Assembly (NCBI RefSeq): GCF_004341505.2
Contig: NZ_SLYP02000001.1
Coordinates: 2,690,501-2,754,500, forward strand
Direction of reading: 5' to 3'
Length of the DNA stretch: 64,000 nt
DNA from: Sphingomonas sp. JUb134
Lineage (GTDB): Bacteria > Pseudomonadota > Alphaproteobacteria > Sphingomonadales > Sphingomonadaceae
The position numbers and the translations under genes are program-made. Shown in pieces: positions 1 to 16,315 of this stretch. How positions within the stretch are numbered: position 1 is the first letter of the stretch; every line of letters starts with the position of its first letter. The notes under the pieces were generated by a model. It saw only the letters and a list, made by a program, of their open reading frames with translations. It made no database searches and was not told where the DNA came from.

Positions 1-1278
1 GAGCTACCCGGGTTTGGGCTAACTGTCACGCCGCCGGGAGTTCGTGGCGGATGCGTGAAGTCATACATCGTCCAGTATCGCCCAGGCGGGCGCGGGACAC
101 CGACGCGTCGCATCACGATCGGTCGCCACGGGGCAGAATGGCAACCAGCGACAGCTCGTGCGGAGGCCGCGGAGTTGATGCGTCAGCGGCGTACGGGTGT
201 TGATCCGTTCGAGGAGCGCAAGCGCCGACGGCAGGCCGAGATCGACGCCCGAGAGCAGACCGAACAGGCGGAGAAGGTGGCGCGGCGCTTCGAGTATGTG
301 GCGTTCCGGGCGGAGTTCGTGGACCGATACGCCAAGCCCAACCAGGCGCGGAGTTGGAAGCAAACAGAGGCAGCGCTTCGGGATCTGGACGGCAAGTTTG
401 CTGGGCAGCGCGTGGACCTGCTGGCCCGGGACGACATCAGTTCGGGGCTGAGCGAGTTGAAGAGGCGGAGCCCGTCGGCCGCAATCGCGGCACACAAGGC
501 GCTTCGGAAGCTTTATAATTGGGCCAACAGCGAGACGCTGTTCAGTTGGCATCCCATGCGCGAGATGAGCGCTCCAGCGAAGACGAAAGTGCGCGCCCGG
601 GTGCTCTCCGGTGCCGAACTAAAGGTCATCTGGGAGGCGGCCGGAGACCTCGGGTACCCATTCGGCCTGATGTATCAGGTGATCCTATGCACCGGGCTGC
701 GGCTTACCGACGTGTCGGAGGCGACTTGGGGCGAATACCACTCCGAGCACGAGGCTCTGATCATCCGGGCGGAGCGAATGAAAAGGCACCCTCACGACGT
801 GCGGGGCGACTTCTTGGTGCCGCTGAACCTATCGGCGGTCGCGATTATCGAGGCAATCCGAGAGGCGCCGGTCCGCTATTCGCCAGCGCTTGCGAAGGGC
901 AACCGTCCGATCTTCACGACCTCGGGCAAAGCGCCCGTGAAGGGGTTCAGCTATTCGAAGGCCGCTCTGGACGCCAAGATCAAGGAGAAGTTGGGAGCTC
1001 CGTTGCCGCATTGGACGACCCACGACCTGCGCCGTACGATGGCAACGGCGATGCAGCCGCTCGGAGTGCCTCCCTCGATCATTGATCGTCTACAGGATCA
1101 CCGGGATAAGGAGCAGTCAAAGACCGCTCTTCACTACCAGCATTGGGACTATGTCGAGGAAAAGCGCGACGCAGCCAAGCTGTACGGGCAGTATCTTGCC
1201 GGGGTGATTTTCGGGGCGAAAGAATACGAGCCACTGGTGCGGAAGGTCTCCTTCCGCCTTGAGCGGGAAGATGAATGA
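1..1278 (+). CDS. Tyrosine-type site-specific integrase (5' end outside window)
   Basis: Catalyses integration and excision of the element. The frame is open to the left window edge: codons before the GTG at 55 read ELPGFGLTVTPPG, which matches the start of the DUF4102/P4-type integrase N-terminal domain. The gene therefore begins upstream and the GTG at 55 is internal. A SAM-like core-binding region follows, then the catalytic domain with the first Arg in CTGLRLTD, the HDLRR box, a DHR box near the C-terminus and the probable nucleophile Tyr in ALHYQHW. About 425 residues are visible. It lies at the opposite end of the element from the tRNA-Gly gene. Family assignment is firm; the attachment site is inferred. 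Confidence 0.95.
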   Translation, partial: ELPGFGLTVTPPGVRGGCVKSYIVQYRPGGRGTPTRRITIGRHGAEWQPATARAEAAELMRQRRTGVDPFEERKRRRQAEIDAREQTEQAEKVARRFEYVAFRAEFVDRYAKPNQARSWKQTEAALRDLDGKFAGQRVDLLARDDISSGLSELKRRSPSAAIAAHKALRKLYNWANSETLFSWHPMREMSAPAKTKVRARVLSGAELKVIWEAAGDLGYPFGLMYQVILCTGLRLTDVSEATWGEYHSEHEALIIRAERMKRHPHDVRGDFLVPLNLSAVAIIEAIREAPVRYSPALAKGNRPIFTTSGKAPVKGFSYSKAALDAKIKEKLGAPLPHWTTHDLRRTMATAMQPLGVPPSIIDRLQDHRDKEQSKTALHYQHWDYVEEKRDAAKLYGQYLAGVIFGAKEYEPLVRKVSFRLEREDE

Positions 1279-4254: not shown

Positions 4255-4857
4255 TTATTGCGGCCGGCTCTTCTGGTAGGCGAGCTTGCCAGCATGGCGG
4301 CGGATGGCGATGGCGGCGACGGCGCGCCGGGTGAAGCGTTCGTCGATGTCGTCAGGGTTGTAAGGGCCGCCATACCAGTTGCGCAGTCGGTCGTGTTCCT
4401 CGTGAGTGGGGTCGCCCATGGCGTCGAGGAACATCTCGTATCCGGGCAAGCCACCGACATCCTCGGGTGGACAGCGCCGTTCGCCGGCGACGAAGCGCGG
4501 GTATTTGACGTCAGGCTCGCCGGGGCCGACCGTTTCCACGGTGATGGTGTGCCGCCAGTCGTCGCCCATGTCGTAGGTGTAGACGAGTTCTTTCATGCCC
4601 CGGTCGAGGAGGGCGGCGAGCTTCACGTTCTTGGCGGCCGCCATGCCGCTTTCCGACCACATCGGGTCCGGCACGCCGTAGCGGTGGTCGCCGGCCTCGA
4701 AGTGCCAGAGATGACAGTTCTCCCAGCCCATCGCAGCCTGGACGACATCGTGGAGCATCTTGAGGCTGGCGGTGACCGGCACGTCGACCCGGCGCCAGAT
4801 GGCGGGTTCGATGTTGTCCAGGACGAGGTGCAGGCGGGCAACGGTTTCGGCGCTCAT
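4255..4857 (-). CDS. Plasmid pRiA4b ORF-3-like protein, IS66 passenger
   Basis: A 200-aa protein of the pRiA4b ORF-3 family: LDNIEPAIWRRVDVP near the N-terminus, AMGWENCHLWHF, the YDMGDDWRHTI motif and the C-terminal WYGGPYNPDDID. Biochemical function is unknown. ATG 4857 overlaps the tnpC stop (ATGA), so it is translationally coupled to the transposase operon, and its stop touches the terminal repeat. It lies inside the element's ends and moves with it, making it a passenger or accessory transposition gene. Confidence 0.88.
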   Translation of the reverse strand: MSAETVARLHLVLDNIEPAIWRRVDVPVTASLKMLHDVVQAAMGWENCHLWHFEAGDHRYGVPDPMWSESGMAAAKNVKLAALLDRGMKELVYTYDMGDDWRHTITVETVGPGEPDVKYPRFVAGERRCPPEDVGGLPGYEMFLDAMGDPTHEEHDRLRNWYGGPYNPDDIDERFTRRAVAAIAIRRHAGKLAYQKSRPQ

Positions 4858-6437
4858 GCCGCCAGCCTGGCAGGTTCGCGAGCCCAGTTCCACGGCATGA
4901 GCTCGTCCCAGCGGCTGGCGGGCCAGTCGTCGGCGACCCTGGCGATGACGTCGGCGATGTACGCCTGCGGGTCAACGCTGTTGGCCTTGCAGGTCTGGAT
5001 GACGGTGTAGATCGCGGCGGCACGCTCGCCGCCCGCCCTGGAGCCGGCGAACAGCCAGTTGCGGCGACCAACGGCGACGCCGCGCAGGGCACGCTCGGCG
5101 ATGTTGTTGTCGATCTCCAGGCGGCCGTCGTCGAGGAAGCGGCACAGTGCCGGCCAGCGTTTGGTGCCATAGGCGATGGCCTTGGCCATATCGGACTTGG
5201 GCGACAGGCGACGAAGGGCAGCGTCGAGCACCTCGCGCAAGGCGCCGACCAACGGCTTGGTTCGGTCCTGTCGCACTCGGTGCCGGACATCCGGTGGCTG
5301 GTCGCGCACCTCGGCTTCGACGGCATAGAGCGCGCCGAAGCGCTGGAGGATGTCGGTGGTCAGCGGCGTGGGGATGCGCTCGTGCAGGTCGAACACCTTG
5401 CGCCGGTAATGCGCCCAGCACGCTACCTCGGTGACACCGCTGCGGTACAGCCCGTCATAACCGGCATAGGCATCGGCCTGGAGGAAGCCGCGGAAGCCGG
5501 CGAGATGCGTCTGCGGGTGCGCGGCGGTCCGGTCGGGTGTGAAGCGATACCAGGTCGCGGGCGGCGCCGTGCTGCCGGACGCGCGGTCATCGGCCGCGTA
5601 TACCCACAGCCGCCCGGTCGCGGTCTTGCCTCGGCCCGGGTCGAGCACCGGCACCGGCGTGTCGTCCGCATGGATCTTGTCTGCGGTCAAGACAGCATCA
5701 CGGATACGGCTGACGACCGGGTCGAGCAGGACTGCGGCCTGCCCGGTCCAGCCGGCAAGGGTGGAGCGGTCGATGTCGAGGCCCTGCGCCGCCATCATCT
5801 CGGCCTGACGATAGAGCGGCAGATGGTGGTCGAACTTGGAAACGACGACATGCGCCAGCGTGGCGAAGGTCGCCTTGCCCCGCGCCACGGCGCTGACCGG
5901 CGCGGGTGCCTGCACGATTTTCTCGCAAGCCCGGCAGCTATATTTGGGGCGAACGTTGCGCACGACCCGCCAGTGGACCGGCATGACGTCGAGCATCTCG
6001 TGCGTATCCACGCCCAAGCGACGCAACATGCCGCCACAGTCCGGGCAGGTGCAGGCACCAGATGCCGGCTCATGGACTACTTCCTCGCGCGGCAAGTGGT
6101 CCGGCAGGCTGCGGACCGGTGCCGGTCGCGGCGCTACTTCGGGTGCCGCAGTCTCGACTGCGGAAACATCGCGCTCGGTTTCCAGCTCTTCCAGTGCCAG
6201 TTCGAGCTGCTCGACCTCGCGGCCCAGCTTCTCGGATGAGGCGCCGAACTGCATCCGCCGCAGCCAGGCAATCTGCCCGCGCAGGGTGTCGATGAGCAGG
6301 TCGCGGGCGACGAGCGCGGCATTGGCCCGGGCGAGCGAAGCCTCCAGCGCGGCGATCCGCGCGATGACATCAGCTGAGGAAACGGGCGCTTCCGACACCA
6401 GGATTGCATAGCAGATCGCATGCCGACGGGCGAGCAA
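4854..6437 (-). CDS. tnpC: IS66 family transposase TnpC
   Basis: A transposase of up to 527 aa. It has an N-terminal leucine-zipper-like coiled coil (ALEASLARANAALVARDLLI, QFGASSEKLG), a CxxC...CxxC zinc-binding region (CTCPDCGG, YSCRACEK), and a DDE catalytic core with KIHADDTPVPVL (first Asp), FLQADAYAGYDGLY (second Asp) and the Glu in EIDNNIAERALR. The C-terminus carries the IS66_C-type GGERAAAIYTVIQTCKANSVDP block. The TTG at 6437 or a GTG at 6398 may be the true start. It appears intact. Confidence 0.95.
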   Translation of the reverse strand: MLARRHAICYAILVSEAPVSSADVIARIAALEASLARANAALVARDLLIDTLRGQIAWLRRMQFGASSEKLGREVEQLELALEELETERDVSAVETAAPEVAPRPAPVRSLPDHLPREEVVHEPASGACTCPDCGGMLRRLGVDTHEMLDVMPVHWRVVRNVRPKYSCRACEKIVQAPAPVSAVARGKATFATLAHVVVSKFDHHLPLYRQAEMMAAQGLDIDRSTLAGWTGQAAVLLDPVVSRIRDAVLTADKIHADDTPVPVLDPGRGKTATGRLWVYAADDRASGSTAPPATWYRFTPDRTAAHPQTHLAGFRGFLQADAYAGYDGLYRSGVTEVACWAHYRRKVFDLHERIPTPLTTDILQRFGALYAVEAEVRDQPPDVRHRVRQDRTKPLVGALREVLDAALRRLSPKSDMAKAIAYGTKRWPALCRFLDDGRLEIDNNIAERALRGVAVGRRNWLFAGSRAGGERAAAIYTVIQTCKANSVDPQAYIADVIARVADDWPASRWDELMPWNWAREPARLAA

Positions 6438-14180: not shown

Positions 14181-14195
14181 GATAGATTCTCTATC
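14181..14195. promoter_or_regulatory. Palindromic operator candidate
   Basis: GATAGA-TTC-TCTATC, perfect 6-bp arms around 3 nt, lies between the divergent coiled-coil gene and the XRE regulator gene. Autoregulated XRE repressors usually bind such sites. Location and symmetry are seen; binding is inferred. Confidence 0.5.
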
Positions 14196-14244: not shown

Positions 14245-14472
14245 ATGACACCGACACAATGCCGCATGGCAAGAGCCGCGCTTCACTGGTCCGCGGCCGA
14301 TCTCGCCCGGGCTTCTGCTGTCGGCTACGCAACGGTAGCGCGCTTCGAACTTGGCCAAACCGTCCAGCCGGACAAAGTAGCTGCTATGCGCCAGGCGCTT
14401 GAGGATCAGCGGGTGCGCTTCGTTGAAGATGGGCCGTTCGCAGGAGTTTTGGCGCGGACGCCAGCAGCATGA
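14245..14472 (+). CDS. XRE-family helix-turn-helix regulator
   Basis: A 75-aa single-domain regulator. MTPTQCRMARAALHWSAADL, ARASAVGYATVARFELGQTV and MRQALEDQRVRFVEDG are typical of the short HTH_XRE proteins common in sphingomonads and rhizobia. ATG 14245 is chosen since the HTH starts right after it, although the frame extends upstream. It is divergent from a coiled-coil gene with a palindrome in the shared region. Likely a local repressor; it could also control the NTase pair downstream. Confidence 0.85.
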   Translation: MTPTQCRMARAALHWSAADLARASAVGYATVARFELGQTVQPDKVAAMRQALEDQRVRFVEDGPFAGVLARTPAA

Positions 14473-14596
14473 TGCTCCAGCTTCGGTCTAGGACTGTACC
14501 TAATTATACGTGCGCGGTCGGTGTTCGGTGCTGGGCTGATTGCGCTTAACGTTCTGCGATGTACCTTCGCCCAGTTTTTGGGGGACGATTCGCTGG

Positions 14597-15100
14597 ATGG
14601 GGTACCGATACAAGTTCGACCATCCGCCACTCCTTCCGCCTGGCAGGCATCCAATGTCTTTGTCCGATTTGAGGAATCTGACGGTCAGCCCTTTTGATGC
14701 GGACTCCTCGCGTCATGCCATTTTTGCGAAGTTCGAGGCACTGGTGCTTGACCTTCAACAACGCGGCTTCCGCTGCGAGGTTCTGTGCAACGGCAGCTTC
14801 GTCACCAGCGCCCCCAAACCTGAAGACATCGACGTCGTAGTGCGGATCGATCATGATTTTGCCGCGCAGCTTAGCGACGAGCAGCTCGCATTCTTCGACG
14901 GCCTGAACGACGATTTAGCGGATCACGTGGTGGATACGTTCGGCGAGGTGGCGTATCCTTACGGCCACGCCGACTATGGCGCGGAGGAAGGCCCGAGCTG
15001 GGAAGCGCACTACGGCATGGAGCACGGGCAAGTCTGGCTTAAGGGAGTGGCAGTCGTGAAGGTGGGGGAGACCGATGTCGGACTACGCCTCCGCCGCTGA
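14597..15100 (+). CDS. DUF6932-type minimal nucleotidyltransferase
   Basis: A 167-aa protein. LLPPGRHPMSLSDLRNLTVS at the N-terminus and the NTase motif NGSFVTSAPKPEDIDVVV (GS-x9-DxD) match the DUF6932 family, a Pol-beta-like nucleotidyltransferase fold. The two motif aspartates and Gly-Ser are intact, so catalysis is plausible; substrate unknown. A Trp/His/Tyr-rich segment (WEAHYGMEHGQVWLKG) follows. ATG 14597 is chosen with GGGGGACG upstream. It overlaps the next gene by 26 bp, so the two are almost certainly coexpressed. Toxin-antitoxin or defence function is speculation from context. Confidence 0.75.
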   Translation: MGYRYKFDHPPLLPPGRHPMSLSDLRNLTVSPFDADSSRHAIFAKFEALVLDLQQRGFRCEVLCNGSFVTSAPKPEDIDVVVRIDHDFAAQLSDEQLAFFDGLNDDLADHVVDTFGEVAYPYGHADYGAEEGPSWEAHYGMEHGQVWLKGVAVVKVGETDVGLRLRR

Positions 15101-16001
15101 CCATGCGCGCCGGGTAGGCGCTTCCATTGCCCGGCTAGAGCGTCGCGCAGGCGAGGCGCCGGATGATCGCGCCCTTCAGATCAACTTGGCCGCCAAGCGC
15201 AAGCTCTTGCGCCGCGCGCGTCAGGAGCTGGAAGGGATCGCCGAGTCTCATGGCGTCGAGCTATGTGATTACCGGTTGATCCCGCGGCAAGAAGCACGCC
15301 TCTTGCTGCCAAATATCTCCAGTTCCCTACTGCAATACCAATATGTGTTTAGCCAAGTATATGACAGCCTTCTCAATGGCCCTAAACGCAACGCACGAAT
15401 TGCGGACAAGCCTTGGAAAGAAAGCTGCTTAGAAATAGGTTTCACCTACAGCGGCTCATTTGGCACGGTGTTAATGGCGCCTTCGAAACGAGACTTTTTC
15501 GAAGGATCATTCGACAGGACAGTAGAGGCTGTCGATCAGCTGCTCAACATCAGTGATGATCATGACGTCCGAGACGTTGCAAAGACGCTTGGTGAAGCCG
15601 TTATCAAACGGCTACATGATTGGTCTTTCGCGAACGTAAAGGGCAACTTCGACGCTGATGTTCGGTGGCGCCGGTCAGACGGCCGCCAATTTGGCAGGCT
15701 CGTTAAGTTCGACGACATGGCTCGGATGGTGACGCTCATCTCCGCCACGTCGGACGAGGATCGGCAACCAGTGGAGGCTTCGGGGGTGCTCATAGGCGCC
15801 GACCTCCAGTCGAGGTCCTTCCACTTCGTGGTGCCCAATGGAGACACGTACCGTGGATCATTGGGGGAACGGTTCCCAACGGGCGCCGTACTCAAGCTCC
15901 CTGGCTCCTATCGAGCATCGATAACCCGGATCGTGACGATCAACTACGCGAGCGGACGTGAGACGGAGAGGTTTGAGCTAGAACAGCTTAGCACCGAATA
16001 G
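15075..16001 (+). CDS. Uncharacterised 308-aa partner of the nucleotidyltransferase
   Basis: Starts inside the NTase gene. Residues about 5-60 form charged helices (ARRVGASIARLERRAGEAPD, LAAKRKLLRRARQEL). The middle (about 85-195) is mixed (LLQYQYVFSQVYDSLLNGPK; LEIGFTYSGSFGTVLMAPSK). The C-terminal ~110 residues look beta-rich (GRLVKFDDMARMVTLISATS; GVLIGADLQSRSFHFVVPNG). No catalytic motif or membrane segment is evident. The DNA around 15,290-15,660 is visibly more AT-rich than its surroundings, consistent with separate acquisition. Last gene before the tRNA-Gly end of the element. Confidence 0.7.
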   Translation: MSDYASAADHARRVGASIARLERRAGEAPDDRALQINLAAKRKLLRRARQELEGIAESHGVELCDYRLIPRQEARLLLPNISSSLLQYQYVFSQVYDSLLNGPKRNARIADKPWKESCLEIGFTYSGSFGTVLMAPSKRDFFEGSFDRTVEAVDQLLNISDDHDVRDVAKTLGEAVIKRLHDWSFANVKGNFDADVRWRRSDGRQFGRLVKFDDMARMVTLISATSDEDRQPVEASGVLIGADLQSRSFHFVVPNGDTYRGSLGERFPTGAVLKLPGSYRASITRIVTINYASGRETERFELEQLSTE

Positions 16002-16241
16002 CCGTGCCGATCGACCGCGGGCAGAGCCCCCTGGCTGCTTGCTAGGGGCTGCGCGCGCTTCTGCCAGTCGAGATCCCGGCGCGCTCTCGAGTATGTCGGA
16101 CATGCCGCGCCGGCATCTGCTCGGACCTGTAGGGCACGTTTCTGGAACGGTGTCGGCCTCGGAGCAAGAACTACCCGCCAGATCGCGCTTATCCCGTGCT
16201 TATCCGGACTTCATCAAACGCCGTCGATTTCAGCTAAGTGC

Positions 16242-16315
16242 TGGAGCGGGTGAAGGGAATCGAACCCTCGTCGTAAGCTTGGGAAGCTTCTGCTCTACCA
16301 TTGAGCTACACCCGC
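16242..16315 (-). tRNA. tRNA-Gly (anticodon CCC)
   Basis: Read on the minus strand it begins GCGGGTGTAGCTCAATGG and ends CACCCGCTCCA, with encoded CCA. The D arm (GCTC/GAGC), anticodon loop TTCCCAA and T arm with GGTTCGATTCC are all present; the acceptor stem GCGGGTG/CACCCGC is perfect. The 3' end faces the phage-like element, making it the likely attachment gene. Confidence 0.97.

Follow-up and report, generated by a model that had tools for sequence, protein, structure and literature searches.

A nucleotidyltransferase gene pair at the tRNA end of a Sphingomonas prophage remnant is a distant relative of the phage defence candidate PDC-M63

The closest described relative of the gene pair considered here is PDC-M63, a two-gene phage defence candidate catalogued in PADLOC, whose PDC entries presumably originate from a preprint by Payne and others. 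It appears only in PMC12409345 within the literature searched (which covered few subscription papers and preprints), and the same search gave no mention of DUF6932, the family to which its first gene belongs. According to the available portion of PMC12409345, E. coli NILS69 carries PDC-M63AB in a prophage, and deleting the pair revealed no contribution against the 10 phages able to infect this strain; among the possible explanations its authors give is the limited diversity of those phages. The accessible main text of PMC13092281 contains no reference to nucleotidyltransferase, DUF6932, M63 or PDC, and the accessible part of PMC13190303 does not mention the M63AB pair. Several better characterized systems resemble the pair in one respect or another. 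PD-Lambda-2 is made up of a HigB-like A protein, an Xre-peptidase B protein and a C protein, and the available text of PMC9519451 reports that the Xre-peptidase protein pairs with the HigB-like gene, is toxic alone and is rescued by the upstream gene. The same portion of PMC9519451 describes PD-T4-10, with toxin B and antitoxin A, in which PD-T4-10B is toxic and its deletion ended T4 resistance in the tested system. HEPN/MNT modules such as MntA/HepT couple a minimal nucleotidyltransferase to a single partner, as PDC-M63 does.

We analysed a stretch of 64,000 nucleotides from Sphingomonas sp. JUb134 (below, the window) in which the original prediction had placed a nucleotidyltransferase gene and an overlapping partner gene as a candidate new module. 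Re-reading of the sequence confirmed the pair, its coordinates, its reading frames and its 26-bp overlap, and novelty is the part of the claim that fell, because both genes match PDC-M63. The features of the locus are as follows.

229 to 275 bases left of the window's first base: left att repeat, 47 bp, perfect
55..1278, + strand: tyrosine integrase gene at the opposite end of the element from the pair (Phage_integrase, E 1e-10)
14181..14195, no strand: GATAGA-3-TCTATC, a perfect inverted repeat and possible operator, upstream of the HTH gene
14245..14472, + strand: small HTH (Xre-type) regulator gene, 75 aa, with its stop 124 bp before the M63A gene
14597..15100, + strand: PDC-M63A gene, 167 aa, DUF6932 minimal nucleotidyltransferase (Pfam PF22014, PADLOC PDC-M63A)
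15075..15100, + strand: overlap of the M63A and M63B reading frames, 26 bp
15075..16001, + strand: PDC-M63B gene, 308-aa partner (PADLOC PDC-M63B)
16242..16288, no strand: right att repeat, 47 bp, perfect, within the 3' part of the tRNA-Gly gene
16242..16315, - strand: tRNA-Gly (CCC), the integration site (ARAGORN)

The pair agrees with PDC-M63 in that its first protein matches the M63A model, its second matches the M63B model over nearly its full length, and the two genes are adjacent in the order A-B; judged by sequence it is thus a distant member of that catalogued candidate, its partner scoring as a distant member (22.6 bits). The predicted surroundings of the pair were also borne out. ARAGORN places the tRNA-Gly gene where a neighbouring one had been claimed, and an XRE gene does lie just upstream, although its match to HTH families is weak in that both Pfam scores (HTH_31, E 8.7e-4; HTH_3, E 1.1e-3) fall under the curated cut-offs. 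The GATAGA-3-TCTATC repeat could act as an operator but may be a chance occurrence, since 15 inverted repeats, this one included, were listed over 541 bases. The AT-rich part claimed for the partner gene appears as a dip in GC to 0.49–0.52 in 15250–15699, against 0.56–0.67 in the other 300-base steps of 14500–16299. A promoter scan gave one site where 0.5 were expected, and a terminator scan gave one where 2.1 were expected.

The element that carries the pair has matching ends and the appearance of a decayed prophage. It is bounded on both sides by the perfect 47-bp direct repeat, whose two starts lie 16,516 bp apart (a 16.5-kb remnant), and a genome search for the 21-base core of this repeat, with one mismatch allowed, gives these two sites and no others. 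The integrase frame continues leftward out of the window to a start about 170 bases outside it, and the part of the protein that begins there matches Arm-DNA-bind_3 (E 6.9e-11). Between the ends lie genes for a DUF1376/primosomal protein, a terminase small subunit, a transposase and two internal-virion or endolysin-like proteins, with the M63AB pair as the last cargo before tRNA-Gly; large terminase, portal and capsid proteins were not seen among the subset of open reading frames scanned. The decayed-prophage reading follows from the matching att ends, the integrase and the phage genes, taken together with this lack of large terminase, portal and capsid among the scanned proteins. The transposase gene (4854–6437 of the window; PHROG E 8e-176), which we take to be of the IS66 type, sits between the terminase small subunit and internal virion protein genes.

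M63A is a DUF6932 protein by Pfam (PF22014, E 2.8e-19, 70.4 bits against a cut-off of 27), this being its sole Pfam match at E<=1, and it matches the PADLOC PDC-M63A model (PDLC04744) with E 3e-23, residues 6–156 aligning to 3–149 of 152. Nucleotidyltransferases of the Pol beta-like type carry the signature GS-x(7-12)-DxD plus a third acidic residue. The predicted intact GS-x9-DxD motif is present as G66, S67, D77 and D79, and these residues, together with R39, K149 and G150, are found in 37/37 aligned M63A sequences including the window's (one sequence, L051, was excluded from the alignment because of an unread base). The third acidic residue, D113, is kept in 34 of the 37, the others having H (two) or E (one). 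Searches for more distant relatives gave little: against PDB sequences the window's M63A found the CD-NTases 6e0k and 6e0m weakly (E 0.04–0.07), ranking below chance-like matches, while a DUF6932 relative, L089, matched the Polbeta nucleotidyltransferase family at E 2.8e-5 (24.6 bits, under the Pfam cut-off of 26.9) and gave no match in the PDB sequence search.

The partner had been described as having no known motif, and this holds for Pfam, in which the window's M63B has no match at E<=1; it does not hold for PADLOC, in which M63B has relatives, and there is in addition one weak PHROG match (E 0.025). The PDC-M63B model (PDLC04747) is matched with E 1.3e-5 and 22.6 bits, residues 12–302 aligning to 12–305 of 309, and in an alignment of 35 M63B proteins that includes the window's, 34 match it at E<=0.01. 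These proteins share a conserved C-terminal domain that holds the dipeptide G127 S128, which is invariant in 35/35; this G and S are the only two fully invariant positions. The N-terminal part (about residues 1–65) presumably forms a helical hairpin, as judged by eye; the coiled-coil in the window's M63B is likewise a by-eye call, like that of the original prediction, and the single match in a PDB sequence search was a coiled-coil surface protein with E 0.14. The M63B domain also extends beyond PDC-M63. The PDC-M32A model is matched by 17 of the 35 M63B proteins and the PDC-M02B model by 4 of 35; in the M63B of L076 the PDC-M32A match spans residues 60–272, that is, it leaves out the N-terminal segment. 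A further protein (L107:937–2211) is a fusion of a PD-T4-10_B-like N-terminus (E 1.6e-8) and an M63B-like C-terminus (E 2.1e-5), and has no DUF6932 gene beside it within its 3.7-kb locus. From the PDC-M32A and PDC-M02B matches and this fusion we infer that the M63B domain may be a transferable sensor or regulator.

These features separate the window pair from the other systems to which it might be assigned. HEPN toxins carry the motif R-x4-6-H. The window's M63B lacks this motif, and neither it nor the 35 aligned partners has a HEPN match in Pfam, so that HEPN/MNT identity was rejected in spite of the shared coupling of a minimal nucleotidyltransferase to one partner. AbiE (AbiEi/AbiEii) was rejected because no AbiE family is matched by either protein at E<=1 in Pfam or PADLOC, and the earlier judgement that the partner is neither HEPN-like nor AbiEi-like therefore stands. 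MenAT was rejected because DUF6932 is all that M63A matches in Pfam at E<=1, and the MenT family differs from DUF6932. Membership in PD-Lambda-2 was rejected as well: some DUF6932 genes do have a PD-Lambda-2_B-like partner, but the window's M63B has no HTH, Xre, peptidase or PD-Lambda-2 match in Pfam or PADLOC. Its likeness to PD-T4-10 is confined to the L107 fusion, the window's M63B having no PD-T4-10_B match at E<=1.

The claim that the nucleotidyltransferase belongs to a coupled pair carried by a mobile element gained support from a survey of the pair's recurrence from both sides. Used alone as queries, the window's M63B found nothing in plasmids or phages and only its own copy among 385 class genomes, and the window's M63A found nothing in viral contigs; other copies were recovered with the window's M63A in plasmids and phages, with the DUF6932 profile and with alignments. 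All 41 IMG/VR loci found through the M63A alignment (27 distinct A and 27 distinct B proteins) have M63B adjoining, with an A/B overlap of 4 bp in 35 of them, although this count says little about A genes with other partners, since the search was seeded from A genes that have B partners. From the M63B side, relatives occur in 3/385 class, 6/398 phylum and 5/396 order genomes (the window's own genome being counted each time), and M63A lies directly upstream of M63B in 10 of the 11 different non-own genomes, L107 being the exception. The pair of PhiR30_1, a record which we assume may come from the work of Brenes and Laub (2025) on E. coli prophage defences, is matched in 97 of 5426 complete E. 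coli genomes, in 94 of them over at least 80% of its length. A profile scan of genome contigs yielded 34 DUF6932 loci from Pseudomonadota, Chloroflexota, Bacteroidota, Bacillota, Nitrospirota, Poribacteria, Methanobrevibacter and others. Two Methanobrevibacter contigs (L079 and L085) each have a DUF6932 gene with a short M63B-like partner of 215 aa.

The nearest relative of the window pair is in Rhodopseudomonas rhenobacensis (A 41% and B 46% identical), and it too has a 26-bp overlap; its B protein is sister to the window's B with tree support of 100/99. The window's B groups with this protein, two other alphaproteobacterial copies, a Chloroflexi copy and an uncultured proteobacterial copy, and the enterobacterial phage M63B copies are separate from this group. 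Distances among A proteins and among B proteins are strongly correlated (r 0.92, 31 pairs, 0 of 10000 permutations), a result that shared descent of whole loci would give as well. In 14 comparisons among phage copies dN is 0.10–0.34 and silent sites are near saturation, with finite dN/dS values in four (0.05–0.09). At amino-acid sites B has changed more than A, by a factor of two to three, in L028/L035 (dN 0.30 vs 0.10) and in L024/L031 (0.34 vs 0.14), which may reflect recombination or diversifying change in B; in the five other phage pairs compared, amino-acid change is similar in A and B. Two family-level relatives (L105 and L106) have a distant M63AB pair adjoining what appears by eye to be the same chromosomal gene, presumably thiC-like, and no phage gene was seen beside either pair within loci of under 4 kb.

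In lambda the exclusion genes rexAB sit between cI and N. The M63AB pair occupies the like slot in four annotated records, namely mEpX1, PhiR30_1, Erwinia phage 59 and a Klebsiella prophage in a large plasmid record (duplicates of mEpX1 and Erwinia phage 59, an unannotated Aeromonas record and an Oscillatoria record with an Xre-type pair being left out of this set). In all four it lies directly behind a CI/S24-type repressor gene; downstream of the pair, sometimes separated from it by small unknown genes, come genes of the N, kil or gam type. The comparison with RexAB concerns the slot, M63AB being a nucleotidyltransferase pair, and the window copy differs further in its setting, a remnant in which the 75-aa HTH gene occupies the repressor's place. 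An upstream XRE gene as a fixed third member of the module was rejected, since the four lambdoid records have the CI/S24-type repressor at that position. Upstream open reading frames gave an HTH or S24 match in 10/10 cases, which is not an unbiased rate because they were picked by eye from 52 listed loci, some of which have no such reading frame.

The partner is the variable member of DUF6932 modules. DUF6932 was found at E<=0.001 in 11 of 385 class genomes, where its partners are M63B in three, Xre-type proteins in four (L003, L004, L008 and L011) and longer, peptidase-like Xre proteins in two (L005 and L007), these six being classed by alignment, with Pfam checks covering HTH families in L003 and L005 and Peptidase_M78 in L005 alone; the remaining two are a gene with an 85-aa reading frame beside it (L010) and a fragment with a stop (L012). 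The partners in the 34 genome-contig loci are M63B-like in 24 (some of these are short, split or truncated where the contig stops, and many are members of the model used), an Xre-peptidase in one, a DUF1828 protein in one and reading frames of 68–74 aa in six; none was found in two, one with an altered A frame (L090) and one at a locus end (L095). PD-Lambda-2_B is matched by 3 of 8 Xre-type partners, with a best E of 2.5e-90. The C-terminal part of the partner is exchanged among DUF6932 modules, between M63B, Xre, Xre-peptidase, DUF1828 and almost nothing. The DUF1828 partner (L089:1462–2463) also matches PADLOC PDC-M24B (E 1e-19), and a Saprospiraceae locus (L072) has two similar short reading frames in tandem after its DUF6932 gene (711–920 and 977–1192; 69 and 71 aa).

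An N-terminal segment appears to be common to several of these partner types. We built a profile from residues 1–64 of the Xre-type partners and searched 3254 open reading frame entries with it (some entered twice). Outside its own members it matched L088 (E 6e-7), L087 (3.5e-4), L083 (1.9e-3), L089 (8e-3) and L093 (0.016); the next forward match was an unrelated reading frame at 0.1 and the best reversed-sequence control scored 0.052. L087, L083 and L093 are short partners and L089 is the DUF1828 partner, all four being from Poribacteria, and L088 has an M63B-like end. The sequence comparison thus supports the segment as shared by several partner types, even though the profile misses the short partners of L072, L081, L091 and L010, which are classed by size and position only. 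Its extension to the window's partner is only suggested: the link from M63B to the Xre-type partners runs through L088 alone, the window's M63B N-terminus was not matched in the same 3254-entry search, and hhalign of its residues 1–67 with residues 1–69 of the Xre-type partners gave a probability of 16% (E 0.0016).

We consider it about an even chance (roughly 0.5) that PDC-M63AB is an exclusion or abortive-infection module expressed during lysogeny. The N-terminal segment of M63B, the presumed helical hairpin, would bind M63A and keep the nucleotidyltransferase inactive, and the C-terminal domain would detect a sign of superinfection. The released or re-activated enzyme would then put a nucleotide on a cell component, perhaps a tRNA or a protein, and this transfer would stop the cell from growing or the phage from replicating. 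Where the lambdoid phage is intact, the lysogen would express the pair along with the repressor and would exclude superinfecting phages in the manner of Rex; in the window the small HTH gene holds the repressor's position. The PADLOC matches, the catalytic residues, the co-occurrence of the two genes, the A/B distances, the repressor slot, the exchange of partners, the L107 fusion and the low dN all favour this reading. It is weakened by the negative result in NILS69, by an N-terminal link that passes through L088, by the classing of four of the seven short partners by size and position, by the M63B-like domain of L107 that has no DUF6932 gene, and by L105 and L106, which have no visible phage gene.

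The alternatives differ in which protein does the harm and in whether phages are involved. M63B might itself be a toxin that M63A neutralises by attaching nucleotides, as MntA does to HepT in type VII systems, and such roles have precedent, in that the MNT enzymes of HEPN/MNT modules are antitoxins according to the available parts of PMC7641770 and PMC11586414, and a PD-Lambda-2 Xre-peptidase, related to one of the partner types, is the toxic member of its pair (PMC9519451, available text). We nevertheless judge this arrangement unlikely, as partners of 68–85 aa (seven loci, three of which match the N-terminal profile) are poor candidates for an enzyme toxin, and M63B has no R-x4-6-H and just the G and S as fully invariant positions. 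Next, and about as unlikely, comes a plain addiction (toxin-antitoxin) module that retains the remnant or a genome region and has no anti-phage role. Two small overlapping genes with an HTH gene nearby would suit such a module, as would a remnant whose scanned proteins include no large terminase, portal or capsid, and the negative phage tests in E. coli NILS69 (PMC12409345, available text); it is made doubtful by the pair's place next to the repressor in lambdoid phages, by the matches of M63B to other defence candidates (PDC-M32A, 17/35) and by the existence of the PD-T4-10_B-like fusion. A non-defence phage function of a repressor operon, such as control of lysogeny, induction or host physiology, would account for the position of the pair in lambdoid genomes, behind the repressor and ahead of the N, kil or gam genes, but is highly improbable, because the pair is also present on contigs of Bacteroidota, Chloroflexota, Nitrospirota and Bacillota and some loci have by eye no phage gene beside it, although unseen prophages are possible there.

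The comparison has practical consequences for a candidate that has so far been, in the literature searched, a catalogue entry with one negative test. It gives PDC-M63 a testable anatomy, with residues to mutate, a putative neutralising part of about 65 residues and a putative phage-sensing domain. The part of about 65 residues should by itself neutralise the enzyme, since natural partners as short as 68–85 aa exist, and challenge with virulent phages may be misdirected, given that it is in temperate phages that the pair adjoins the repressor. More widely, and as a tentative reading, DUF6932 nucleotidyltransferases may constitute a family of plug-in modules for defence or toxin-antitoxin function, in which a constant nucleotidyltransferase and small N-terminal partner segment would be combined with swapped C-termini. 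The M63B domain would then be an infection sensor that can be transferred and serves other effectors too, as in PDC-M32A-like proteins and the PD-T4-10_B-like fusion. We found no description of such a family in the literature searched, in which few subscription papers and preprints were covered. This is the aspect worth following; if true, it would link several unassigned defence candidates in one scheme.
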